64,000 nt of DNA, taken from NCBI GenBank assembly GCA_030447955.1, contig JAUJNY010000005.1, positions 23,333 through 87,332 on the forward strand, read 5' to 3'. The notes beneath the pieces were generated by a model, which saw only the letters and a list, made by a program, of their open reading frames with translations, was not told where the DNA came from and ran no database searches. Positions 11,495 to 31,294 of the stretch are shown one piece after another. A program made the position numbers and the translations under genes. This stretch comes from Jiangellales bacterium. GTDB taxonomy: Bacteria > Actinomycetota > Actinomycetes > Jiangellales > Jiangellaceae. Numbering within the stretch: position 1 is the first letter of the stretch; the number at the start of each line of letters is the position of its first letter.

Positions 11495-12163
11495 CTCCTC
11501 GGTCCGGGCGGTGGCGAGCCGCTCCAGCCACGTCTCGAGGACGTCGATGCCCACCAGGTCGCGCTGCAGCACCGACATCACCGCGGAGGCCAGCCGGTCG
11601 TCCTCTCCGTCGGTGAACCGGTAGGCCGTACCAGCGAGCAGCCGGCCGCCGACGACGTCGAGGACGACCGAGAGCTCCGCGCTGCCCAAGTGCCGGGAAG
11701 CCGCGAGGTGGGCGAGCAGGTCAGCACCGTTGCCGACGGCGTCCGCCCAGCCGGCTGCGGGCAGCCAGGCGCGCAGGTCACGCTCCTCGAGGTACCACGC
11801 GAAGGCGTGGTCGGCCCAGCTGAAGACCTGCTGGGGATGCAGGGCGCGGACGGCGTTGTCCCGGGCCACGACCGCGGCAAGCGCGCGGGCTGAGTACGAC
11901 CGGCGCAGCACCGTGGACCCCGCCTCGTCACCGAGGGAGGTGCGCAGCCCGACCGCCAGGCCGTCGCCCAGCCCGACCAGCAGCTCGTCATAGACCCCGT
12001 CGGCGATCCAGCGCGCGAGCGTTGAGAAGCCGAGCTCGTCGCGCACGTGCGAGTCAGCGTCGCCCAGCATCGCGACCAGCTCGGCGGTCAGGTCGTCGAG
12101 AGCTGCGCCGCTGGGTACTCCTCCACCGACCGCGACGAGTCGCTCCCAGTACGACGTCCGCAC
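11249..12163 (-). CDS. DUF2785 domain protein
   Basis: A 304-residue, largely helical protein that resembles DUF2785. Markers are the ELGFSTLARWIADGVYDELL segment near the N-terminus, WADHAFAWYLEERDLRAW in the middle, and the C-terminal repeat-like helices ending in IPGLLKAGPA. The role is unknown. I chose the GTG at 12163 (VRTSYWERL) because the longer open frame upstream is low-complexity and runs over whiB1. The 3' end overlaps the convergent YihY-like frame by 246 bp. The helical periodicity continues through this overlap, so this gene, not the other, is probably the conserved one there. Confidence 0.75.
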   Translation of the reverse strand: MRTSYWERLVAVGGGVPSGAALDDLTAELVAMLGDADSHVRDELGFSTLARWIADGVYDELLVGLGDGLAVGLRTSLGDEAGSTVLRRSYSARALAAVVARDNAVRALHPQQVFSWADHAFAWYLEERDLRAWLPAAGWADAVGNGADLLAHLAASRHLGSAELSVVLDVVGGRLLAGTAYRFTDGEDDRLASAVMSVLQRDLVGIDVLETWLERLATARTEESPGVKEFVAPVGGGQRPAHRPMAVRTNTAAFLRALHLQLLLGVGGSAERAPAAPQVRSDLLIALQAELRASIPGLLKAGPA

Positions 12164-15164: not shown

Positions 15165-15569
15165 TCAGGCCGCCTGCTTGGTCTCCCAGAAGATCGCGGC
15201 GATCTCGTCGATCTTGGCAAGGAGCTGGTCGGCGATCGCCGGGTCGAGGGATCCCTTGGCGCCACTGGCCCCGGACAGCTTGGTCGCCTCGTTGAAAAGC
15301 TCGTGCAGCTGCGGGTACTTCTCGAAGTGGGGCGGCTTGAAGTAGTCGGTCCACAGCACCCAGAGGTGGTGCTTGACCAGGTCGGCGCGCTCCTCCTTGA
15401 TCAGCACCGCGCGCTGGCGGAAGACCTCGTCCTCGGTCCCGTGGTACTTGTCGATGATGGCCCGGACGGACTGCGCCTCGATGCGCGCCTGGGCAGGGTC
15501 GTAGACGCCGCACGGCAGGTCACAGTGCGCGGACACCTGGATCGTTGCGGCGGTCCAACGCGACAGCAT
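15165..15569 (-). CDS. sodN: Nickel superoxide dismutase
   Basis: NiSOD dismutates superoxide to peroxide and oxygen. The 134-residue precursor has a 14-residue propeptide and then the mature N-terminus HCDLPCGVYDPAQ. His1, Cys2 and Cys6 of that hook bind nickel, and Tyr9 gates the site. KHHLWVLWTDYFKPPHFEKY and the C-terminal IFWETK are conserved in Streptomyces enzymes. The ATG at 15569 is preceded by AGGAG. The hook must be freed by a protease, and the divergent sodX supplies it. Confidence 0.97.
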   Translation of the reverse strand: MLSRWTAATIQVSAHCDLPCGVYDPAQARIEAQSVRAIIDKYHGTEDEVFRQRAVLIKEERADLVKHHLWVLWTDYFKPPHFEKYPQLHELFNEATKLSGASGAKGSLDPAIADQLLAKIDEIAAIFWETKQAA

Positions 15570-15660
15570 GGGCGCTCCTTCGCTCGGGCTGTAAGGGTGC
15601 TGGTCGACGTTGGCGACACTACCGCGCAACGTGGATGCGAAGCCGGGGAGGAGCGGTGCG

Positions 15661-16032
15661 GTGCGGGTGGGGCTGGCCCGGGTGCGCGGTCGCTCGATGG
15701 AGCCGACCTTGCGCGCCGGGGACCGGCTGGTGCTGCGCTACGGCGCACCCGTACGTCCTGGTGCCCTCGTCGTGGTACGGCTGCCTGACCGGGGGATAGC
15801 AGTCAAGCGGGCCTGGCGGAGCGACGGTCGAGGGCCGGACGCTTCGGCGTCCGATGGTTCGGCATCCGAGGGTCCGGCATCCGAGGGTCCGGCATGGTGG
15901 GTGGAGCGGGACAACCCGGTGGCGGGCGTCGACTCGTGGCTGCTCGGGGCGGTGCCCGAGCGCGACGTCCTGGCGGTGGTCGTCGGACGCTGGTGGCCGC
16001 GCCCGTCCCTGCTCCGCGGGCGTGCTCGCTGA
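15661..16032 (+). CDS. sodX: NiSOD maturation protease SodX
   Basis: A signal-peptidase-like (S26) serine protease of 123 residues that removes the NiSOD propeptide. The catalytic Ser is in GRSMEPTLRAGDRL and the Lys in AVKRAW. There is no membrane anchor, as expected for cytosolic SodX. The GTG at 15661 follows GGGGAGGAG at good spacing. Between the Lys box and the last strand is an unusual insertion of five-residue repeats (S/P-A-S-D/E-G), encoded by a 15-bp tandem repeat. Divergent from sodN, 91 bp apart. A decayed pglY gene begins 1 bp after its stop. Confidence 0.92.
   Translation: MRVGLARVRGRSMEPTLRAGDRLVLRYGAPVRPGALVVVRLPDRGIAVKRAWRSDGRGPDASASDGSASEGPASEGPAWWVERDNPVAGVDSWLLGAVPERDVLAVVVGRWWPRPSLLRGRAR
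15844..15888 (+). repeat. Three 15-bp tandem repeats inside sodX
   Basis: Units at 15844-15858, 15859-15873 and 15874-15888 differ by a few bases and encode S-A-S-D-G, S-A-S-E-G and P-A-S-E-G. The length is a multiple of three, so copy-number change would keep the frame. The insertion lies in a surface loop by its position between catalytic Lys and the C-terminal strand. Confidence 0.9.
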
Positions 16033-17219
16033 CTCACCAGCGTCACGGCTCCCGCCGACGAGCAGCTGCTGCATATCTTGAGCGCGGTGCGGTCGCGTTG
16101 CAGCATCCCGGACAGTGCGACGAGCACATCGACGAGTGCGGGGGAGAAGGGATAGATACGCCGGAAGGCCATTTGGTCGGCGCCTCCTCGCCCGTCGGTG
16201 TCGAGGCCTTGCAGGAGCACGTTCCACATCTCGCCGCGGTGGCGACCTTGTCGAACGCCGCGTCGATGGTCTGCTTGCCGCCGGGTTTCGGCTTGAGCAG
16301 CCGCCGCTCGACGATGACCGGGAGGCTGCGGTCCTCGAGTGTGATCTTGTTGAAGCGGTCCTCCCACCAGCGGAACGTCTCGCCGAAGGCCAGCCGCTCC
16401 GCGCCGGGCACGTGCTCGCCGGGGAAGTCCTTGAGGGCGCTGGCGGGCGATGAGGGAGACCAGTGGGATGGGCCGGCGGGCGTCGGCCGCCTCGACCGGC
16501 TTGGCGACCTTCGCCCTCGCTGGAGACGAAGTCGGTGTCGCGATGCGGCTGGCGAGCCAGAGCACGAGCTCGTCGAGGCAGAGCACGACCGCGTCGTAGC
16601 CGAGGCTTTGCGCGTGCCGCGCCACCGCCGCGAGCCCCCGCTAAAGGTCGAGATAGCCGGCTCCTGTGGTGAAGGCCCGGAAGTACGCCGCCGTCAGGTC
16701 GCTGACCAGCCGGGCGCGGGCCTCGTCGCCGACCGGGGCGTACCTGGCCGCGGCGTAGGACGCAGCGTCCCAGCCACCGCTGCCCCACCCCTCCGCGTCA
16801 CCTCTGCCCAGCCCGGCGAAGAACTTCTCGTCGGCGAGGCGTGGCCCGCATGCGGCCGCCGTCATCCAGCAGCGCGTCGGTGACGTGCACCTCGGGCAGC
16901 GGCGCCTGCGTGTGCTGGCGGCGTGCTTGGTGCACGTAGCCGCCGACATCGCCGACTCCAGGTTCGCCGCGCCACTGAGGTGGTAGGTCAGGCGTAGCAG
17001 CTTGCGATCCCGTAGCCAACCGTCGTGTCTGGCGACGACACCGGCCAGCCCTTCGATGGACCGGGCCACCGGGTCGTGGCCGAGCAGCTGGTGCAGCACG
17101 GCCATGAAGGCGGCGAGCTCCGTGGTGACGACCTAGTCGGCGAGCGTGCCGCTCGCATGCGCCGCGTCCTGCACGCCCTCGGTCAGCCTGAGGACGTAAT
17201 CGCCAACGCTGACCCGCTC

Positions 17220-17227: not shown

Positions 17228-18654
17228 GGCTCTACGCAGCCAACCTTGGTAACCGGCCTCTTAGTGGTGTCGGTCGGTGAGTGTGCCAGTCGACGCCGCA
17301 GTGCAGCAGGAGGCGGAGGCGGTAGTTGTCGAAGTTGCGGAACCCGTGACCGATCCGCTTGATCTTCTTGATGAGTAGGTTGACCGCTTCGGTGCGTGCG
17401 TTGGAGACCCCGCCGGTGTCGAAGTAGGCGAGCAGCTCGGTGCGCCAGGAGTCGATGGTGCGGGCGAGGCGGTGCAGCTCGGGGACGTTGCTGTCGGCGC
17501 AGTGGACCAGCCAGTGGTGCAGCCGGCGTTGGGCCTCAGCGCGAGACTTCGCCCGGTAGAGCAGCCGGAGGTCTTGGGCGGCGATCCAGGTTGCGGCGAT
17601 CTGCCCGTCCTGGTCGCCGGCGTCCAGACCGGCCAGCAGCCGTGTCCAGGCTGGCTGGGACAGGTGATCGGCCCCGCGGCGCAGTACCCGCCGGATCCGG
17701 TACAGCGGGTCGTCACGTCGGCCGCGGTGCCCGGTGGTGTCTTGTTGGACCCGGCGGCGCACGTCGTCCACGGCGGTGAACCCCAGCCGGGTGACGTGGA
17801 AGGCGTCCAGCACCCGGATGGCGTGCGGGAGGCTGGTGCTCAGCGCGGTGGCGTAACCACGGAAGGGGTCCAGCGCCGTCACCTGCACCGCTTGGCGCCA
17901 CTGTTCGGGCTGGGTGTTCACCCAGCTGGTGAGTGCTTTGCCGCTGCGACCTGGGACGACGTCGAGCAGCCGGGAGGTGCCCACGTCGACCACTCCGGTG
18001 ACGAACTGCGTGTTCCGAGTGGCGTTCGCGGCCAGGAATGCGGTCTCGTCCACCCCGAGCGCCTCCACTCCGACCAGCCGGGCCGGGCCGTCGACCAGCG
18101 GAGTGCCGTACTCGCGGACCGCGGCCATCGCGGTGGCCCACCCGACCCCGAAGTCCGCCGCGACTTGGGCGACGCAATGGCCGTCTTGACCGACCCGGCG
18201 GCACGCCTCGGCCCGGGCCCGTTCGGTCCACGACGCCCGCGCCCGGATCGCCGGCGACGTCTCAGTCCAGGTGGAGACCGAACACAGGTGCTCCCTGCAC
18301 CGCCACACCCGCTTGACCCACACCAACGTCACTGGTCGACCGCCCGCTGGAAGGTCACGCACCCACGTCGGACGCCGATCATGAAGCCGCGCTTGAACGC
18401 CACAGCCACGACAGAACGCCTCGTTCTGGGTGGTCTCAATCGCCTGCTCAACCTCACCGGCGTACTCCGACACAGCGAGTAGAACGAACCCGTCCAACCC
18501 GAGCATCGCCGTCGCCGCGCTACCGTCTCCCTGCACCTGGGGCCTCCCTCGACTCGTGTCCAGACACCACGAATCGTGAGGCCCCAGGCCCGTTCCCAAG
18601 CTCAGGTCGAAGCTCGTGTCACCCCGCCGCTACCACGCTTAATTGCGAAGAGCC
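17228..18654 (-). mobile_element. ISL3-family insertion sequence, intact (1427 bp)
   Basis: The element is bounded by 24-bp imperfect inverted repeats: GGCTCTACGCAG at 17228 and the complement of TGCGAAGAGCC ending at 18654, both with TGGTA at their inner end. It is flanked by an 8-bp direct repeat, CGGTATCC. It carries one full-length transposase gene on the minus strand whose stop codon lies inside the left inverted repeat. The perfect duplication and intact gene suggest a recent insertion. Removing the IS and one duplication restores the pglY frame across the junction. Confidence 0.95.
17232..18536 (-). CDS. ISL3-family transposase
   Basis: A 434-residue DDE transposase. The N-terminus has a zinc-finger-like CRGCGVQ near residue 43 and a second CREHLC, then a helix-turn-helix region (ARAEACRRVGQDGHCVAQVA). 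Next comes the catalytic core with GVDETAF (first Asp), [13 protein letters not shown] (second Asp) and a final Glu in [20 protein letters not shown]. The GTG at 18536 is preceded by GGGAGG; the frame is open a little further upstream, but that part is the IS leader. It shares extensive similarity with the frameshifted copy at 29.9-31.3 kb, but the two are clearly diverged. Confidence 0.93.
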   Translation of the reverse strand: MQGDGSAATAMLGLDGFVLLAVSEYAGEVEQAIETTQNEAFCRGCGVQARLHDRRPTWVRDLPAGGRPVTLVWVKRVWRCREHLCSVSTWTETSPAIRARASWTERARAEACRRVGQDGHCVAQVAADFGVGWATAMAAVREYGTPLVDGPARLVGVEALGVDETAFLAANATRNTQFVTGVVDVGTSRLLDVVPGRSGKALTSWVNTQPEQWRQAVQVTALDPFRGYATALSTSLPHAIRVLDAFHVTRLGFTAVDDVRRRVQQDTTGHRGRRDDPLYRIRRVLRRGADHLSQPAWTRLLAGLDAGDQDGQIAATWIAAQDLRLLYRAKSRAEAQRRLHHWLVHCADSNVPELHRLARTIDSWRTELLAYFDTGGVSNARTEAVNLLIKKIKRIGHGFRNFDNYRLRLLLHCGVDWHTHRPTPLRGRLPRLAA

Positions 18655-19068: not shown

Positions 19069-21510
19069 TTAAGCAAGTACAGACGCGCTCGGCCTCAAAG
19101 ACGGAAAGCTTCTAAACAGCAGCATGCAAGCGCGAGCGATAACAAAGGAGTCGCCTATGGCATGGCGGCCCGGTTCTATTTGCAGGAAGTCATGGAACGC
19201 GGGGTGTATTTCGTATCGGCACGAGTCGGCAGTGGGCTGATGGCGCTTTGCCAGCTCGAGTGCCCGCCCGAGATCCGACCCAACCTCGGGATAAGCGAAC
19301 TGATCTGCGTTGGTCTCCAAACCCAAAAAGGACATTTCGAACAGGCGGTTCAACGTCGACTCATGTTTGTCCGGCGCTACTCCAGCACCCGTGAAGACCT
19401 CGAATACTCTTCTACGCGAAACCGTGGACGACTCACCGAGAAACCCGTACAGGACGGCCTCCAGCTCGGGTATCGTGATCCCATTCTCCACCAGGAGCGC
19501 CTCGTATGCATACTGTGAGTATGCGGAAAGTGCGCTCAGCACCTCGGCCTCTGTGACCTGATCCTTTCGCCGATCGATCGCTCGAGCGATTGCGGCATTA
19601 GCCCAATACACGATGTCCCGCGGCCGAGGAAGGACGCGCTGCATAACGAAGTCTCTGGTCGACTGCCCTCCCGTAACAGCAGTAAAGATGCCACCCCACA
19701 TGTCGGGTGCCTTTCCTGGCCGAGTCCAACCAGACTGAAGCCGCTCCTCAAGGACTGCCTCCAGCGTCTCAGTATCACGCCAGACAATGGTCGAGATGCT
19801 CAACTTGTCTGGTTCTCGTGCGGTGTTCTTCACGTAAGTGAAGATGTCGCTTCGCAAAAAGATCGCCATGGTCAGCCTCACTTTGTCCCGCCACCAGTCT
19901 TGTTTCTGGAAGTCGGTCACAAGGTGCCCGCGAGCAGACAACAGTCCCAGAATCAGGCGCGCAAGAACGTCCAGCCTCGCCTCACGCTGCCACCCCTTAT
20001 CGAGGTTGTCGATCAGGACGGCGACACGTTTGTGATCCTTCAGGATTGGGCCCAGAAAATGGCGTAGTTGGGCAAGCGCCTCATGATGGAAGGCCTCGTT
20101 GATCAGCACCCTGCCTGTCTCGACGGATGACTCACTTGCCGTGCCACGGGTTAGGTGAGTTAGGGCTTGGTCGAGCCGCACAGACATGTCCGCACGTACA
20201 TCAAATGGTGTTCGATCAATGTAAGATAGGAAGTCGTCTTCGCCCGACGAGCGCGGGACATAGCCTGGACGGGACTCTATGCGATCGACCACTAAGGCAG
20301 CGAGTTCGGTCTGGATCAAGAAACGCCACATCGTGTCAAAGAGATAATCGTGTGTATGCGGGGGGAGTCGATTCACGGATGCGAGCAGCCCGGGGAATTC
20401 GAAACTCGCGGGCTTGATCAGAAGTACGAGGTTCTCCTTGTTGTCGGCGATTTCCTCGTACGCGCGTAGCGCGTTTGCCGTCTTCCCTGTTCCCCTGTGA
20501 CCAACGAACAGGGTGTCACGAGCACGCAACACGTCCTCAAACGCTGCGGTGCGAACAAAGTAGTCTTCAAGGTCTGCTAGCTCATTTTCCGCGACGTGTT
20601 CGCCGAACCTAAGCCCGGCTAAACGGCTACTCGTAATCACAGGTCTGGCGGTGATTCGAGGCGCCCGCATACCAAGGCCCGCGAGCCATGGTCGAGCGCT
20701 GCCAAGGCAACGCGCTGCTGTGTCGTACACCTTGAGTAAGTGCTCGTAGTCAAACGGCGCCGCGTAATCATCTTCGGCGAGCATCAGCAAAGGTATCTCG
20801 AGCCCAACAGTCATCCCGGCCACAAACGCATTCCTTCGGTTGTGAACCGTAGCCAGGTTGCGCAGCTGGCCAGCAAAGTTGATCAACACACCGCCCGCGT
20901 TGCCTAGTTTCTCCGCATACCAGGTAAGCGGTTCCAGACTCGACTCGGTCGGGTCAGCAGACACGACCTGTAGTCCACGGCGGCGATGGCTTTCGACGAG
21001 CGAGGTAAGTCGGTTCGCAGCTTCGAACGGCTCGAAGGGTGGGCCGTACAGCAATGTTGCACTCGACGTGACGTCCGGCATTGCTGGCTCGATCAGTGAA
21101 TCATAGAGCGGCGGGACCCTAGCCGCGGGGTCTTCGTATCTAATCCTATCTCGCAGCTCTTCGCTGTTTCGATACGTCTCGTACCCGATAAGCTTCAGCA
21201 GCCCTAGATCATTCCAGTCCTTCTTGGCGGATGATACGGTCGAGTCAAGCGTTAGCCAAATCGGCTTCGCTCTCGCTAGCGCGTAGCCTGCCTCAAAGAG
21301 GACGTTTTCACTCGGTCGGGTCATGTCGAATATGCCGAGATCGGAGTCATCAATAGCCTGGAGCACTCTTCGGATGACGACTCGACCGCCTACAGCCAGA
21401 CTTTCCCAAGTGATGCAGTCATGCTCGCCCCGTAGTGCCAGTGCGGTGGTCCTCATCACCTCGGCAATTGGGCGCGGGAGCTGCGGATAGCCCAGAAAAA
21501 TCGAAGCCAA
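19069..21510 (-). CDS. Candidate defence NTPase: TIR/NDT-like domain + second Rossmann-like domain + STAND-like P-loop
   Basis: An intact 813-residue protein. Residues 1-130 form a TIR-like or nucleoside-deoxyribosyltransferase-like Rossmann domain: ASIFLGYPQLP, then GIFDMTRPSENVLFEAGYAL with Asn69 and candidate catalytic Glu73, and IWLTLD. Residues 150-270 look like a second related domain (ATLLYGPPFEPFEAANRL, IPLLMLAEDDYAAPFDY). Residues 310-640 are a P-loop NTPase of the Sll1717/STAND type: YFVRTAAFEDVLRARDTLFV, Walker A GHRGTGKTA (337-345), Walker B VAVLIDNLDKGW (496-507). The C-terminus (640-813) is helical and winged-helix-like. A TTG at 21510 with AGGAGG 8 nt upstream fixes the start. 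GC is visibly lower than the neighbours (28 of 60 bases in 19801-19860). It lies between pglW and pglY remnants. Defence function is inferred. Confidence 0.75.
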   Translation of the reverse strand: MASIFLGYPQLPRPIAEVMRTTALALRGEHDCITWESLAVGGRVVIRRVLQAIDDSDLGIFDMTRPSENVLFEAGYALARAKPIWLTLDSTVSSAKKDWNDLGLLKLIGYETYRNSEELRDRIRYEDPAARVPPLYDSLIEPAMPDVTSSATLLYGPPFEPFEAANRLTSLVESHRRRGLQVVSADPTESSLEPLTWYAEKLGNAGGVLINFAGQLRNLATVHNRRNAFVAGMTVGLEIPLLMLAEDDYAAPFDYEHLLKVYDTAARCLGSARPWLAGLGMRAPRITARPVITSSRLAGLRFGEHVAENELADLEDYFVRTAAFEDVLRARDTLFVGHRGTGKTANALRAYEEIADNKENLVLLIKPASFEFPGLLASVNRLPPHTHDYLFDTMWRFLIQTELAALVVDRIESRPGYVPRSSGEDDFLSYIDRTPFDVRADMSVRLDQALTHLTRGTASESSVETGRVLINEAFHHEALAQLRHFLGPILKDHKRVAVLIDNLDKGWQREARLDVLARLILGLLSARGHLVTDFQKQDWWRDKVRLTMAIFLRSDIFTYVKNTAREPDKLSISTIVWRDTETLEAVLEERLQSGWTRPGKAPDMWGGIFTAVTGGQSTRDFVMQRVLPRPRDIVYWANAAIARAIDRRKDQVTEAEVLSALSAYSQYAYEALLVENGITIPELEAVLYGFLGESSTVSRRRVFEVFTGAGVAPDKHESTLNRLFEMSFLGLETNADQFAYPEVGSDLGRALELAKRHQPTADSCRYEIHPAFHDFLQIEPGRHAIGDSFVIARACMLLFRSFPSLRPSASVLA

Positions 21511-21639
21511 AGCGGATACCTCCTGCTTCCGGGGCCACACCTAACTCGAGCGTACCGGGTAGCTGGTCGATGCTCAGTGACCTGTCGCTTCCACGGACGC
21601 GGCGTACGACGCCCTCCAGGACGGTGTGCCGGCGATCCT

Positions 21640-21841
21640 GGCGCCAATGCTTGAGCTCATCAGATGCAGGCCGTGGCGGGCGAGGACGAGGAAGGTCGAC
21701 CTCGTTGCTCGAGCCGTCGTCGGGAACGAATTCAAGGTTCCCCCACGCCCGGTAGGGGTCGGCGTCGGCGAGGAGGTCTCGAACGGCGAGCAGGCCGGCG
21801 CGCTCGTGCGCGAACTGCGACGGGGTGACCTTCACCCAGCG
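21640..21841 (-). pseudogene. pglW: N-terminal remnant of BREX type 2 pglW
   Basis: The frame reads RWVKVTPSQFAHERAGLL, then VRDLLADADPYRAWGNLEF and DDGSSNEVDL. These are the opening residues of the NERD-like nuclease domain of the PglW kinase as I recall it. After VDL the frame slips: VLARHGLHL appears in one frame and ELKHW in another, so at least two indels are present, and similarity then stops. The kinase domain is absent. The remnant lies 130 bp upstream of the intact NTPase gene and in the same orientation as the pglY remnant. Confidence 0.72.
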
Positions 21842-24649: not shown

Positions 24650-25456
24650 GTGGAGGAAGGCGACCGGCTCCGGCTGCGCGGGGTCTTCGACGAGGTGGCG
24701 CAGGCGTACGACCTTGCTCGTCCGGACTACCCCGAGCAGCTGTTCGACGACCTCGTCCGGCTGAGCGCCCTGGCCCCAGGTGCCGACCTGCTCGAAGTGG
24801 GGTGCGGCACCGGGAAGGCCACTCGTCAACTGGGCCGGCGCGGCTATCCGGTGACCTGCCTGGAGCCTGGTCCCAACCTGGCCGCCGTGGCCCGGGCGAA
24901 GCTCGCTGGCTTCCCCGACGTCAACGTGGTCCCCACGTCATTCGAGACGTGGGACGCCGGCGGCGCGCGGTTCGGCCTCGTGTTCGCGGCGACGTCCTGG
25001 CACTGGGTGGATCCCGAGCTTCGCTATCTCAAGGCAGCCGACCTGCTCGAGCCGGGCGGGTCGCTGGCCGTGTGGGGCTCCACCCTCGCCTTCCCCGCCG
25101 GCTTCGACCCCATCTTCACCGAGATCCAGCAGGTCTACGACGAGATCGGCGAGCCGTGGGAGGGGGAGTGGCCGCCACCGACCCCCGATCAGGTCCCTGA
25201 CCTGACTGGTGAGATCGGGGCCAGTGGACGGTTTGAGGACGCTCACGTCCGCCGCTACGTCTGGGAGCAGCAGTACGACGCCGGGCAGTACGTCGCTCTC
25301 CTCGACACCTTCTCGGGACATCGCGACATGGACCCGGCCAGTCGCGAGCGGCTGTATCGGGAGCTCCGCCGGCTGATTTCGCGGCGGGCGGGCGGTCGGC
25401 TGACGCGTCACTGGCTCTCGATCCTGCACGTGGCCCGAGTGCGCGGCGTCGACTAG
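24650..25456 (+). CDS. Class I SAM-dependent methyltransferase
   Basis: A 268-residue methyltransferase with motif [16 protein letters not shown] (47-61), an acidic ribose-binding residue in [10 protein letters not shown], motif II in [16 protein letters not shown] and a C-terminal helical cap. The ATSWHWVDP block is typical of the SmtA/UbiE-like subgroup that acts on small molecules; the substrate is unknown. The GTG at 24650 lies 27 bp after the dehydrogenase. Its TAG overlaps the opposite-strand TAG of kgd in a single CTAG (25453-25456). Confidence 0.87.
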
Positions 25457-28400
25457 CCGAAGGCCCCGTCCATGAGCTCGCTCTGCTCCTCCTGGTGGCG
25501 GGCATGCGACCCCACGGACGGGGCCGAGCTCGCCCGGCGCGTCACCGGGTGGAGTGGCCAACTGTCCAGTTGCGGTGCCAGGTGCAGCGCCATCGAGGGC
25601 CACGGCCCCATGTTGGACGGCTCGTCCTGCACCCAGCGGACCTGCCGCAGGTTGGGGTAGCGGTGCAGCTCGGTGAGCACCTGCTCGGTCGGCAGCGGGT
25701 AGAGCTGCTCGACGCGCACGATGGCGGTCGCCGTGTCCTTGCGGTTGGCGCGCTCCTTGGCGAGGTCCCAGGCGATCTTTCCTGAGCACAACAGCACCCG
25801 GCGCACCGCGGCCGGGTCGGCGTCCGCGTCGCCGAGCACCGGGTGGAAGGCGGAGCCGTCGGTGAAGTCGGCCTGGTCACTGGCCGCCATCTTGTTGCGC
25901 AGCATGGATTTAGGGGTGAAGACGACAAGTGGCTTGTGCTGGGCCGAGAACGCGTGGCGGCGCAGCAGGTGGAAGTACGACGCCGGGGTCGAGGGCTGTG
26001 CCACCCGGAACGCGTCCTCGGCGGCGAGAGTGAGGAATCGCTCGATCCGCGCCGATGAGTGGTCGGGGCCCTGACCCTCGTACCCGTGCGGCAGCAGCAG
26101 GACCAGCCCGGTGCGCTGTCCCCACTTCGTCTCACCGGCGACGACGAACTCATCGATGATGACCTGCGCGCCGTTGATGAAGTCGCCGAACTGCGCCTCC
26201 CACAACACCACAGCCTCGGGGCGGGCCACCGAGTAGCCGTACTCAAAGCCCACCGCGGCGAACTCGGAGAGCAGTGAGTCGTAGAAGTGGACCTTGGCCT
26301 GCCGCTCGTCGAGCGTCGCCAGCGGCGTCCACTCCGCACCGGTGACCCGGTCGATGAGGACGGCGAAGCGTTGTACGAAGGTGCCGCGGCGACTGTCCTG
26401 GCCGGTGAGCCGGATGGGTCGCCCGTCGAGAGCCAGCGAGCCGAACGCCAGGATCTCCGCGGTGCCCCAGTCGACCGCACCCTCGGTGATCATGGCCGCC
26501 CGGCGTTGCAGCTGGGGCAGCACCTTGGGGTGCACGGTGAAGCCGTCCGGCACGTTGACGTGCGCGTCGGCGATGCGCTTGAGCGTCTCCATGCTCACCG
26601 CGGTGTCGGCCCCGTCCGGCTCCGGCTTCGCGGGGTAGGACGGCACCGTGACGTAGTCCTGTGGCTTGCGGGCAGCGACGTCGCGGGTCTCGGCGAACAC
26701 CCGCTCCAGCTCCGCCGAGTAGTCGCGCAGCGCCTGCTCCGCCTCCTCCACGGTGATGTCGCCACGGCCGATGAGCGACTCGGTGTAGAGCTTGCGGACG
26801 CTGCGCTTCTGCTCGATGAGGTCGTACATGAGGGGCTGGGTGTACGACGGGTCGTCGCCCTCGTTGTGGCCGCGCCGCCGGTAACAGATGAGGTCGATCA
26901 CGACGTCCTTGTTGAACGCCTGCCGGAAGTCAAAGGCCAGCCGGGCCACGACGGCGCACGCCTCGGGGTCGTCGCCGTTCACGTGGAAGATCGGTGCCTG
27001 GATCATCCGGGCCACGTCGGTGCAGTACAGCGAGGAACGGGACGCCGACGGCGAGGTCGTGAACCCCACCTGATTGTTGACGACGACATGGATCGTCCCG
27101 CCGGTGCGGTAGCCGCGCAGCTGGGAGAGGTTGAGCGTCTCGGCGACCACGCCCTGGCCGGCGAAGGCGGCGTCGCCGTGCAGGAGCACGGGTAGTACCG
27201 GGAACTCTTCGCCCCGGTCGAGCACGTCCTGCTTGGCGCGCACGATGCCCTCGAGGACCGGGTTGACCGCCTCCAGGTGGGAGGGGTTGGCGGTCAGCGA
27301 CACCTTGATGGTGTCGCCGGAGTCCGCGGTGAACTCACCCTCGGCCCCCAGGTGGTACTTGACGTCGCCGGAGCCCTGAACGGTCCGCGGGTCGATGTTG
27401 CCCTGGAACTCCCGGAAGATCTGTGCGTACGACTTGCCGGCGATGTTGGCCAGCACATTGAGCCGGCCCCGGTGCGGCATCCCGATGACGGCCTCGACGA
27501 GCCCGGCCTCCGCGGCCGCCTCGATGACCTGGTCGAGCAGCGGGATCATGCTCTCCCCGCCCTCGAGGCTGAAGCGCTTTTGCCCCACGTACTTGGTCTG
27601 CAGGAAGGTCTCGAACGCCTCAGCCTGGTTGAGCTTGTGCAGGATGCGCAGCTGGTCCTCGCGCTTGACCGGCTGACCGACCGCTTCGACCCGCTGCTGG
27701 ATCCAGCGTCGCTGCTCCGGCTCCTGGATGTGCATGTACTCCAGGCCGACCGTGCGGCAGTACGCGTTGCGCAGCACACCGAGGATGTCGCGCAGCAGCA
27801 TGAACCGCTTGCCGTCGCCGAAGGATCCGGTGGCGAACTCGCGGTCGAGGTCCCACAGCGTGAGGCCGTGCGTGGTGATGTCGAGGTCGGGGTGGCTGCG
27901 CTGGCGGTACTCCAGCGGGTCGGTGTCGGCCATCAGGTGCCCGCGCACCCGGTAGGCGTGGATCAGCTCGAGGACCCGCGCCTGCTTGCCGACCTCGTCC
28001 TCGTGGCTGACCGCGATGTCGGGGACCCAGCGAATCGGCTCGTACGGGATCCGCAACGCCCGGAAGACGTCGTCGTAGAACTCCTCGTCGCCGAGCAGCA
28101 ACTGGTGGATCGCGCGCAGGAACTCCCCCGACTGCGCTCCCTGGATGACCCGGTGGTCGTACGTGCTCGTCAGCGTCAGCGTCCGTGACACGGCCAGCTT
28201 GGCCAGGGTCTCCGGTGCGGCGCCCTGGTACTCGGCGGGGTACTCCATCGCGCCCACGCCGAGGATGCAGCCCTGGCCCTTCATCAGCCGCGGCACCGAG
28301 TGGACGGTGCCGATGGTCCCGGGATTGGTGAGGGTGACGGTGGTGCCGGCGAAGTCCTCGACGGTGAGCTTGCCCGCCCGGGCACGGCGGATGACGTCCT

Positions 28401-29346
28401 CGTACGCGCCCCAGAACTGCGCGAAGTCGAGGGTGTCGGCGGCCTTGATGGACGGGACGAGCAGCTGCCGCGAACCGTCGGGCTTCTGCAGGTCGATGGC
28501 CAGCCCGAGGTTGACGTGCTCGGGCTGGAACAGCGCCGGCTTGCCGTCCGCCTCGGTGTACGAGGCGTTGAGCTCGGGCAGCTTGCCGAGGGCCTTGACC
28601 AGCGCGTAGCCGATGAGGTGGGTGAACGACACCTTGCCGCCGCGTGAGCGGGCCAGGTGGTTGTTGACGACGATGCGGTTGTCGATCAGCAGCTTGGCCG
28701 GTACCGCGCGCACGCTGGTCGCGGTCGGCACCTCGAGGCTCGCCGCCATGTTGGCGACCACCCGGGCCGCCGGGCCGCGCAGCGGCACTCGCCGTCCGCC
28801 CTCGCCGTTGCCCTGCCCGCCATCCGTCGTGCCCGCGGTCGCCGCCGCGGCGGCCGGGGCCGGAGCTGCGGCGCTCGTGTCCCCCTGCCGGGCGTGCTTG
28901 GCCGACGGCGGGCTCGCCGCCGGGAGTCGTACGGACTCGGGCGTACGGGCGCCGCTGGCGCGGGCGGCCGGACCGGGGCGGGCCTGTGCCTCGGCCGGTG
29001 GGCGCAGGCTCTCGTCGGGGATGCCCGCCTGCTCGCGGGTGGCCGTGGGGGAGGCGCCGTCCGCCGGGGCGGTGCGCGGCTCGCTCACCTGCGCCGGTGC
29101 CGCCGCGTCCGCGGGGACCTCCCCACGGTCGCTCCCGGCGTCGGGGGACTGGCCGCTGGACTGCGCGGGCTCAGCCGCCCGCGACTCGCCGTTGCCCTCG
29201 AGCGGCTGGTAGTCGCGGAAGAAGTCCCACCAGGCGCGGTCGACGGAGTCGGGGTCCTTGGACCACTGCTCGTACATCTCGTCCACGAGCCACTCGTTCG
29301 GCCCGAAGCTCGCCAGGGGGCTGGGATGCGGTGTCTGCGAGGACAC
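25453..29346 (-). CDS. kgd: Multifunctional 2-oxoglutarate metabolism enzyme (Kgd/OdhA type)
   Basis: A 1297-residue TCA-cycle protein that fuses an E2-like acyltransferase core to a thiamine-diphosphate E1 of 2-oxoglutarate dehydrogenase. The first 40 residues ([19 protein letters not shown]) are the E1 N-terminal helix, followed by an Ala/Pro linker to about 180. The E2 domain follows (about 185-430), with TYDHRVIQG near 397. The rest is E1, with [32 protein letters not shown] and [10 protein letters not shown]. The linker carries no lipoyl domain, as in mycobacterial Kgd. The GTG at 29346 ([10 protein letters not shown]) has an AGAGG site upstream. A candidate promoter lies at 29426-29453. 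Confidence 0.96.
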
Positions 29347-29425
29347 GGATCGCCTCTTCCGCTCGGTGGTGCCGCCGGTTTGCGGCAAGGTTACGCGCCG
29401 CACCCCGCCAGCGGCAGCCGGTCAA

Positions 29426-29858: not shown

Positions 29859-31287
29859 GGCTCTTCTCAATGAAGCGTGGTGAGCCGGCCGCGACACGGC
29901 TGCCGGGCTGAGCCCTGAAAGCAGACCTGGGACCCCAGGATCGAGGTGTCTGACGCCATCGATCCAAGGAGGTCCCAGGTGCGGGATGACGCTACCGCGA
30001 GTGCGGCCATGCTCGGTCTGCCCGGTTTTCGGGTGCTGGCCGTGGCGGCGTACGCCGGCGAGGTTGAGCAGGCGGTGGAAACCGTCGAGGAGGTGACCGG
30101 CTGCCCCTCGTGTGGGGTGGTGGCTCAGCTGCATGACCGGCGGCCGAGCTGGGTGCGGGACCTGCCCGCCGGCGGCCGCCCGGTCACCTTGGTGTGGGTC
30201 AAGCGGGTGTGGCGCTGCCGCGAGCCGTGGTGTCCGAAGGTGACCTGGACGGAGACCTCGGCGGCGATCCGGCCGCGGGCGTCGCTGACCGAGCGGGCCC
30301 GGCGGGAGGCGTGCCGGCGGGTCGGACAGGACGGGCACACCGTGGCCGGGGTGGCCGCCGACTTCGGGGTCGGCTGGGCGACGGTGATGGCCGCGGTCCG
30401 CGAGTACGGCACCCGCTGGTCGATGACCCCCACCGGCTTCACGCAGTAGCCGCGCTGGGAGTAGACGAGACCGCGTTCCTGGCCGCCACCCCCACCAGGA
30501 GCACTACCTACGCGACCGGCATCGTGGCCCTCAACGGGCGGCCGCGGCTGCTCGACGTGGTCCATGGACGGTCCGGAAACGCCTTGTCCAGCTGGGTTTG
30601 CGCCCAGGATCAGCGGTGGCGGGACGGCATCGGCGTCGCCGCGCTGGATCCCTTTCGCGGCTACGCCACCGCGCTGCGCACCACCTTGCCGGGCGCGAGG
30701 CGGGTGCTGGATGCCTTCCACGTCACCCGGCTCGGCTTCGACGCCCTGGACCAAGTGCGCCGCCGGGTCCAGCAGCACACCCTGGGCCACCGCGGGCACC
30801 GAAACGATCCGCTGTTCCGCATCCGGCGGGTGCTGCGCCGCGGGGCCGAGCACCACAGCCAGCGGTCCTGGGCCCGGCTGATCGCCGGGCTCGAGGCCGG
30901 CGATCACGACCAGCAGGTCGCCCTGGCCTGGATCGCCGCCCAGGACCTACGGCGGATCTACCGGTGCAGAACCCGAGCCCAGGCCGAACGCCACCTGCTT
31001 GCCTGGTTCACCGCAGTGGCCGAACACGAGATCCCCGAACTCCTGCGGCTGGCCCGAACGCTGGACTCCTGGCGCAGCGAACTACTGGCCTACTTCGACA
31101 CCGGCGGGGTCTCCAACGGACCCACCGAGGCCATCAACGGGCTCATCAAGAAGATCAAGCGGATCGGGCACGGCTTCCGCAACTTCGCCAACTACCGGCT
31201 CCGGCTACTCCTGTACTGCGGCGTCGACTGGCACACTCCCCGTCACCCCGATCCGAGGGCGGCTACCACGCTTAGCTGCGTAGAGCC
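29859..31287 (+). mobile_element. ISL3-family insertion sequence, inactive (1429 bp)
   Basis: Ends are GGCTCTTCTCAATGAAGCGT at 29859 and the complement of GCTGCGTAGAGCC ending at 31287, inverted repeats like those of the first element. It is flanked by the perfect 8-bp duplication ACTTTGAC. The transposase gene, on the plus strand, is frameshifted, so the copy could move only if a transposase acts in trans. It is a diverged relative of the element at 17.2 kb, not a recent copy of it. Confidence 0.95.
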
Positions 31288-31294
31288 ACTTTGA
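29979..31294 (+). pseudogene. Frameshifted ISL3 transposase
   Basis: The GTG at 29979 (AGGAGG upstream) begins a normal ISL3 N-terminus with CPSCGVV and ARREACRRVGQDGHTVAGVA, but the frame ends at 30447-30449 (TAG) after AAVREYGTR. The rest ([41 protein letters not shown]) continues in another frame. Compared with the intact copy (REYGTPLVDGP), one C is missing near 30412. The C-terminal end is also shifted relative to the intact copy and runs past the IS end. ISL3 elements are not known to need frameshifting, so this is decay. Confidence 0.88.

Follow-up and report, generated by a model that had tools for sequence, protein, structure and literature searches.

The window, a stretch of 64,000 nucleotides from a Jiangellales bacterium (GCA_030447955.1, contig JAUJNY010000005.1, positions 23,333 to 87,332), carries on its minus strand a gene of 813 codons (813 amino acids plus stop) that runs from 21510 to 19069, based on sequence and translation. 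This is where an earlier note had placed the open reading frame, and the elements listed there (E73, NVLFEAGYA, GHRGTGKTA and VAVLIDNLDKGW) are all present. Translation starts with a TTG codon at 21510, a start point shared with the homologues placed in alignments, and a ribosome-binding site AGGAGGT (21518..21524, minus strand) is located 7 nucleotides upstream. The gene occurs as a single copy within its genome and has a GC content of 57.2%, compared to a mean of 71.8% (sd 1.8, minimum 67.9) in 2.4-kb slices outside the surrounding island. The deviant base composition described before is thus confirmed and, in combination with a patchy distribution, it supports the proposed acquisition by transfer. 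A chance open reading frame is excluded, since full-length homologues are found in many phyla and dN/dS amounts to approximately 0.03–0.23 in all three domains for those homologue pairs with unsaturated dS. The full-length AlphaFold2 model (pLDDT 89.6, pTM 0.85) depicts a three-part protein. Its last part, a tail of about 33 amino acids (residues 781–813; 19072..19170, minus strand), has a counterpart in almost no homologue and is modeled poorly. The ancestral stop codon may therefore have been lost, with the tail as read-through product; the gene had been called undamaged, which is correct for its frame but doubtful for its 3′ end.

The gene lies in place of a decayed BREX type 2 system, as indicated by the remnants on both sides. 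Directly upstream, a pglW stub (21419-21835, minus strand; PADLOC PglW, E-value 1.1e-16, profile positions 8-54 of 1403; remnant proper at 21692..21832) retains only about 50 N-terminal residues out of 1403. Downstream, beyond an ISL3-family transposase gene, pieces of pglY/brxC (15738..17105, minus strand; PADLOC BrxC, E-values 7e-30 and 4e-43) are frameshifted, truncated and interrupted by in-frame stops, and in a whole-genome search they cover only residues ~10-438 of 1240. PglZ was not found in a search of this genome, which is 82% complete. The decayed defence island recognized earlier can thus be given a name, yet the gene is not its only undamaged member: the ISL3 transposase gene (17232..18599, minus strand; PF01610, E-value 1.5e-58, complete domain) is apparently complete as well. 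A second ISL3-family element is located at 29946-31294 on the plus strand, inverted relative to the first, and the two bracket about 13.5 kb that include the gene and a 2-oxoglutarate dehydrogenase-like gene (25453-29403). Their inverted orientation and a mutual likeness of only 75–83% rule them out as the ends of a young composite transposon. Outside the island ordinary genes are found, with a PhoD-like phosphatase on one side and a nickel superoxide dismutase on the other. The latter gene abuts the island and is divergent from a signal-peptidase-like gene, the two forming the usual sodN/sodX pair (15165-16032).

The N-terminal domain (residues 1–130; 21121..21510, minus strand) is of the NDT/DNPH1 type. 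In isolation it is matched by the nucleoside 2-deoxyribosyltransferase model PF05014 with an E-value of 1.4e-5, although the score of the window copy (25.6 bits) stays slightly below the Pfam cut-off of 28.8 bits; across the family 48 of 54 members are matched. The CAP12/Pycsar TIR model recognizes 25 of these 54 members and, below its cut-off, the window domain (E-value 5e-4). Classical TIR and DUF4062 models match two members each, and weakly (about 0.002 for DUF4062), and neither PF01582/PF13676 nor DUF4062 (PF13271) matches the window protein, so that its TIR likeness is situated at the level of the fold. A single-sequence phmmer search of the PDB with the window protein gave no match, while the family profile of domain 1 retrieved DNPH1/Rcl (E-value 1e-5), NDT and CMP N-glycosidase as closest solved structures. 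Both the TIR-like/deoxyribosyltransferase-like N-terminus expected from the earlier reading and the fold that structure prediction and search had to reveal are thus present. Residues W35, N69, E73 and G75 are invariant in all 73 homologues. Glu73 (21292..21294, minus strand) aligns with the glutamate of the YELG motif in DNPH1/Rcl and is the predicted catalytic nucleophile. Beyond this Asn/Glu pair, conservation of the residues used by DNPH1 is not evident in domain 1, and the substrate can consequently not be read from the sequence. The safest designation is that of an NDT/DNPH1-like, TIR-related N-glycosidase, with catalysis as a prediction from sequence and model.

Domain 2 (residues 148–282; 20665..21069, minus strand), proposed before as a second Rossmann-like domain, appears to adopt the same NDT/TIR-like fold. 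Its separate AlphaFold2 model (pLDDT 92.0, pTM 0.87) follows the strand-helix order of domain 1, and Foldseek ranks NDT first (E-value 1.3e-3), followed by DNPH1, TIR-APAZ, TIR-STING and plant TIRs; the leading matches have probabilities of 0.96–1.00, with none at an E-value below 1e-3 and with other Rossmann-like folds also among them. A profile search of the PDB gave only weak and unconvincing matches, and the identity of the domain therefore rests on the model. Profile comparison aligns domains 1 and 2 co-linearly, but weakly, in a register where E73-x-G75 corresponds to 230-x-G232 and N69 to position 226. The window copy has V230 in place of the glutamate and R226 in place of the asparagine. 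Position 230 is hydrophobic (V/I/L/F/M/A) in 73 of 73 homologues and 69 of them have R or K at position 226, which argues that domain 2 is catalytically dead. As judged from alignment and model, it is a pseudoenzyme copy of the N-glycosidase fold. At the same time D254 and G232 are invariant and dN/dS is 0.03–0.13 (pairs with unsaturated dS), indicating that the domain is constrained. This predicted dead twin, which is the unusual feature of the family, perhaps serves as nucleotide sensor or as structural part.

The C-terminal domain (residues 302–776; 19183..20607, minus strand) is a P-loop ATPase of the Sll1717 family. The full NF047389 model (1–454) is matched with an E-value of 3.4e-75 and 253.9 bits, compared to a cut-off of 75 bits, and the Sll1717/STAND-like NTPase announced before is hereby substantiated. 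Walker A (GHRGTGKTA, residues 337–345; 20476..20502, minus strand) and Walker B (VAVLIDNLDKGW, residues 496–507; 19990..20025, minus strand) contain the invariant residues K343 and D501, D504 and W507, respectively, K343 and D501 being retained in 73 of 73 homologues. In addition, R553, R590 and P630-R631 are invariant, the last two as part of an RPR motif (residues 629–631; 19618..19626, minus strand) that may represent the sensor-2 arginine region. At its end the AlphaFold2 model has lid elements and a winged-helix-like element with the order H-H-H-E-E (residues 683–740; 19291..19464, minus strand), which looks like the winged helix of Orc/Cdc6; a repeat-rich sensor C-terminus is absent from the model. 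Using the whole model, Foldseek retrieves Cdc6/Orc1, the plant TIR-NLR RPP1, the archaeal STAND-like Sso1545 and, further down, TIR-STING, with modest TM-scores because the alignments span flexible domains.

A scan of genomes with the single sequence returned no relatives. An alignment of 10 full-length relatives was made first and served as basis for a pattern-based scan covering 84,980 species genomes, which gave at least 275 confirmed relatives (80 kept) and eight more in viral contigs. The three-domain architecture, encoded by one stand-alone gene, recurs very patchily across at least 19 phyla, among them actinobacteria, Bacteroidota, cyanobacteria, spirochaetes and archaea. Besides the window gene, two full-length copies were present in 147 near genomes, and among 397 genomes of the phylum the window gene is the only one. 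In the tree, 22 phylum changes are needed for 19 phyla, with a minimum of 18, pointing to an old family that is mostly inherited or exchanged within phyla; some jumps between phyla are nevertheless visible, e.g., Cyanobacteriota and Thermodesulfobacteriota inside Bacteroidota. Plasmid copies occur in Rhodococcus, Leptolyngbya, Leptospira, Paraburkholderia, Ochrobactrum, Mesorhizobium, Rhizobium and Ensifer, and prophage copies adjoin tail, integrase, repressor and primase genes. In the phage collection no match to the window protein was found; with a prophage homologue as query only relatives of the ATPase appeared, in two Klebsiella phages, and a Foldseek comparison with viral structures did not bring up any full-length relative.

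Several homologues are damaged. A Planococcus homologue is broken by a frameshift, and Rhodococcus and Rhizobium homologues carry nonsense codons within domain 1 with the ATPase left open. The effector-domain nonsense codons recorded at codon 101 of locus L009 and at position 11959 of locus L015 are independent and belong to two phyla. Such codons may be a sign that a toxic effector is selected against, a suggestion based on two cases. The first of these loci (L009, 10918-26310, a Rhodococcus qingshengii plasmid) places its interrupted homologue amid a dense island of NADase-type candidates, where the flanking genes code for TIR-domain proteins, for a DUF4062 protein and for a WD40 protein.

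The neighborhood of the homologues, proposed earlier as a check, gives a mixed picture. Among the 150 nearest neighbors, from about fifty loci, PADLOC (E ≤ 1e-10) recognizes at least twelve distinct genes that belong to defence or are candidates for it. In a set of 124 genes around the actinobacterial homologues PADLOC (E ≤ 1e-15) names eight, among them restriction enzymes of types IV and I as well as SAVED-TIR, PbeA and DolB; SoFic and Hhe are also present among the defence genes next to homologues. In a control of 134 genes of the same genomes, two generic kinases dominate among the PADLOC matches listed. The contrast between neighbors and control, based on the matches listed, is suggestive only, and the PADLOC tally is a poor statistic since one kinase matches about 25 models. 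Enrichment of defence genes is thus moderate, while many neighbors are ordinary genes and the control is imperfect. The 150 neighbors fall into unrelated families and no conserved partner gene is found among them, ruling out a two-gene system for most members. The commonest family, the octameric membrane protein 8xMP, accounts for four of the 150 and is a possible recurrent neighbor.

We propose, with a probability of roughly 0.6, that the gene encodes a single-gene, horizontally spread antiphage protein of the abortive-infection type, in which infection would be sensed by the ATPase and an essential nucleotide hydrolyzed by the N-glycosidase through Glu73. The carriage by plasmids and prophages, the patchy distribution, the BREX type 2 remnant around the window copy, the defence genes near some homologues, the nonsense codons in domain 1 of two homologues and the validated relative DS-41 favor such a defence role, which we infer together with sensing, oligomerisation, substrate, trigger and cell death. 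In the proposed mechanism, the C-terminal ATPase of Orc/Cdc6-STAND type would detect infection through some cue and alter its nucleotide or oligomeric state. This change would activate the NDT/DNPH1-like domain with its putative nucleophile Glu73, and the subsequent breakdown of an essential nucleotide would halt growth ahead of phage release. NAD+ is the most likely target, as the NDT-like effector of Retron-Eco1 and the TIR/NDT-like DUF4062 are antiphage NADases; (d)NMP or (d)NTP come next, nucleoside monophosphates being retained as candidates on account of the similarity to DNPH1. Domain 2, devoid of the catalytic residues, would be a module that either has a structural task or regulates by binding nucleotides. 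A sensor domain is not recognizable in the protein. A bolder version, which we hold to be rather unlikely, considers the family an undescribed cross-domain class of single-gene immunity in which the dead paralogue gates the N-glycosidase, serving as receptor for infection-altered nucleotide pools or an infection signal and informing the ATPase switch.

The same enzymatic logic could be directed against plasmids or competing mobile elements instead of phages. Many homologues reside on plasmids near relaxase or conjugation genes (Leptolyngbya) or in prophages, and the Orc/Cdc6-like ATPase with its winged helix is reminiscent of replication initiators; yet members are also chromosomal near restriction genes and further antiphage genes, the window copy sits in a BREX remnant and the related DS-41 is antiphage, making this target unlikely. 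It is likewise unlikely that the window copy is itself decaying and has ceased to function. Such decay would be in line with the broken BREX type 2 genes next to it, the non-homologous 33-residue tail and a P-loop (GHRGTGKT) that differs at two non-catalytic positions from the family consensus GRKGTGKT, but the frame of 813 codons is open, all invariant residues are kept, and start and ribosome-binding site are good.

Depletion is not the only conceivable outcome of the predicted activity. TIR enzymes both signal and deplete, and the TIR protein ThsB makes a cADPR-like product. Given a fold shared with TIRs, domain 1 might produce a signal nucleotide, e.g., cADPR-like, for another effector; we regard this as quite improbable, as no conserved partner gene exists and a single-gene layout better suits self-contained depletion. 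The closest solved enzymes, DNPH1 and NDT, are metabolic, and the protein might accordingly be a non-immune nucleotide N-glycosidase of metabolism or regulation, involved in pool sanitation like DNPH1 and combined with a regulatory ATPase. The extreme patchiness, plasmid and prophage carriage, foreign GC content, repeated inactivation in homologues and fusion to a STAND/Orc-type ATPase make this reading very unlikely, and a housekeeping role is rejected on patchiness.

The antiphage reading can be placed among known systems as follows. DNPH1/Rcl and nucleoside 2-deoxyribosyltransferases are single-domain metabolic enzymes; they have the glutamate motif and fold of domain 1 and the fold of domain 2. 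In the case of the Sll1717 family (NF047389), the window protein matches the full model and has kept both the lysine of Walker A and the aspartate of Walker B, but that model covers the ATPase only and many members are stand-alone proteins of about 500 amino acids, whereas here the ATPase is fused to two NDT/TIR-like domains. A literature search, covering main texts available without subscription, found no papers on Sll1717 and no experiments on any full-length member, and the family thus apparently constitutes a genuine, widespread and undescribed subfamily. It is missed by PADLOC, while NCBIfam names it only 'P-loop ATPase'. The layout had been compared with Avs and TIR-STAND proteins. This analogy holds for the logic of an effector combined with a STAND-like ATPase, shared with Avs and TIR-NLR proteins (RPP1 is among the top Foldseek matches), but not for membership: no PADLOC family, Avs models included, matches the window protein at E ≤ 1, and Avs proteins have a large C-terminal repeat sensor that binds phage terminase or portal, whereas the window protein has an Orc/Cdc6-like C-terminus without repeats. 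In the absence of any match to Avs models or classical TIR families, and with DS41_1 below cut-off, identity with Avs, classical TIR-NLR or DS-41 is ruled out.

DS-41 (DefensePredictor; NCBIfam NF053860, DS41_1_antiphage), which PMC13092281 gives as experimentally validated against phages, has an ATPase homologous to domain 3 (E-value 1e-10), but with 40.8 bits for the window protein compared to a cut-off of 370 it is a different protein and a distant cousin. Retron-Eco1 (Ec86) has, like domain 1, a toxic NDT-like effector domain, which assembles into NAD+-hydrolyzing filaments according to PMC12548924 (citing Carabias 2024); there the effector is under RT/msDNA control, whereas the window protein has a fused ATPase and no RT. 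The antiphage NADase Swarozyc (DUF4062) is a TIR/NDT-like N-glycosidase with a conserved glutamate that in eukaryotes is fused to NACHT ATPases (PMC13174449); the ATPase of the window protein is different, and no portal-binding auxiliary domain is seen in it. If the family is antiphage, it would represent a broad single-gene system in which a nucleotide-destroying enzyme is placed under an Orc/Cdc6-type ATPase rather than a repeat-sensor NLR, and its tandem of enzyme and putative pseudoenzyme provides a testable idea of how such effectors may be kept silent.
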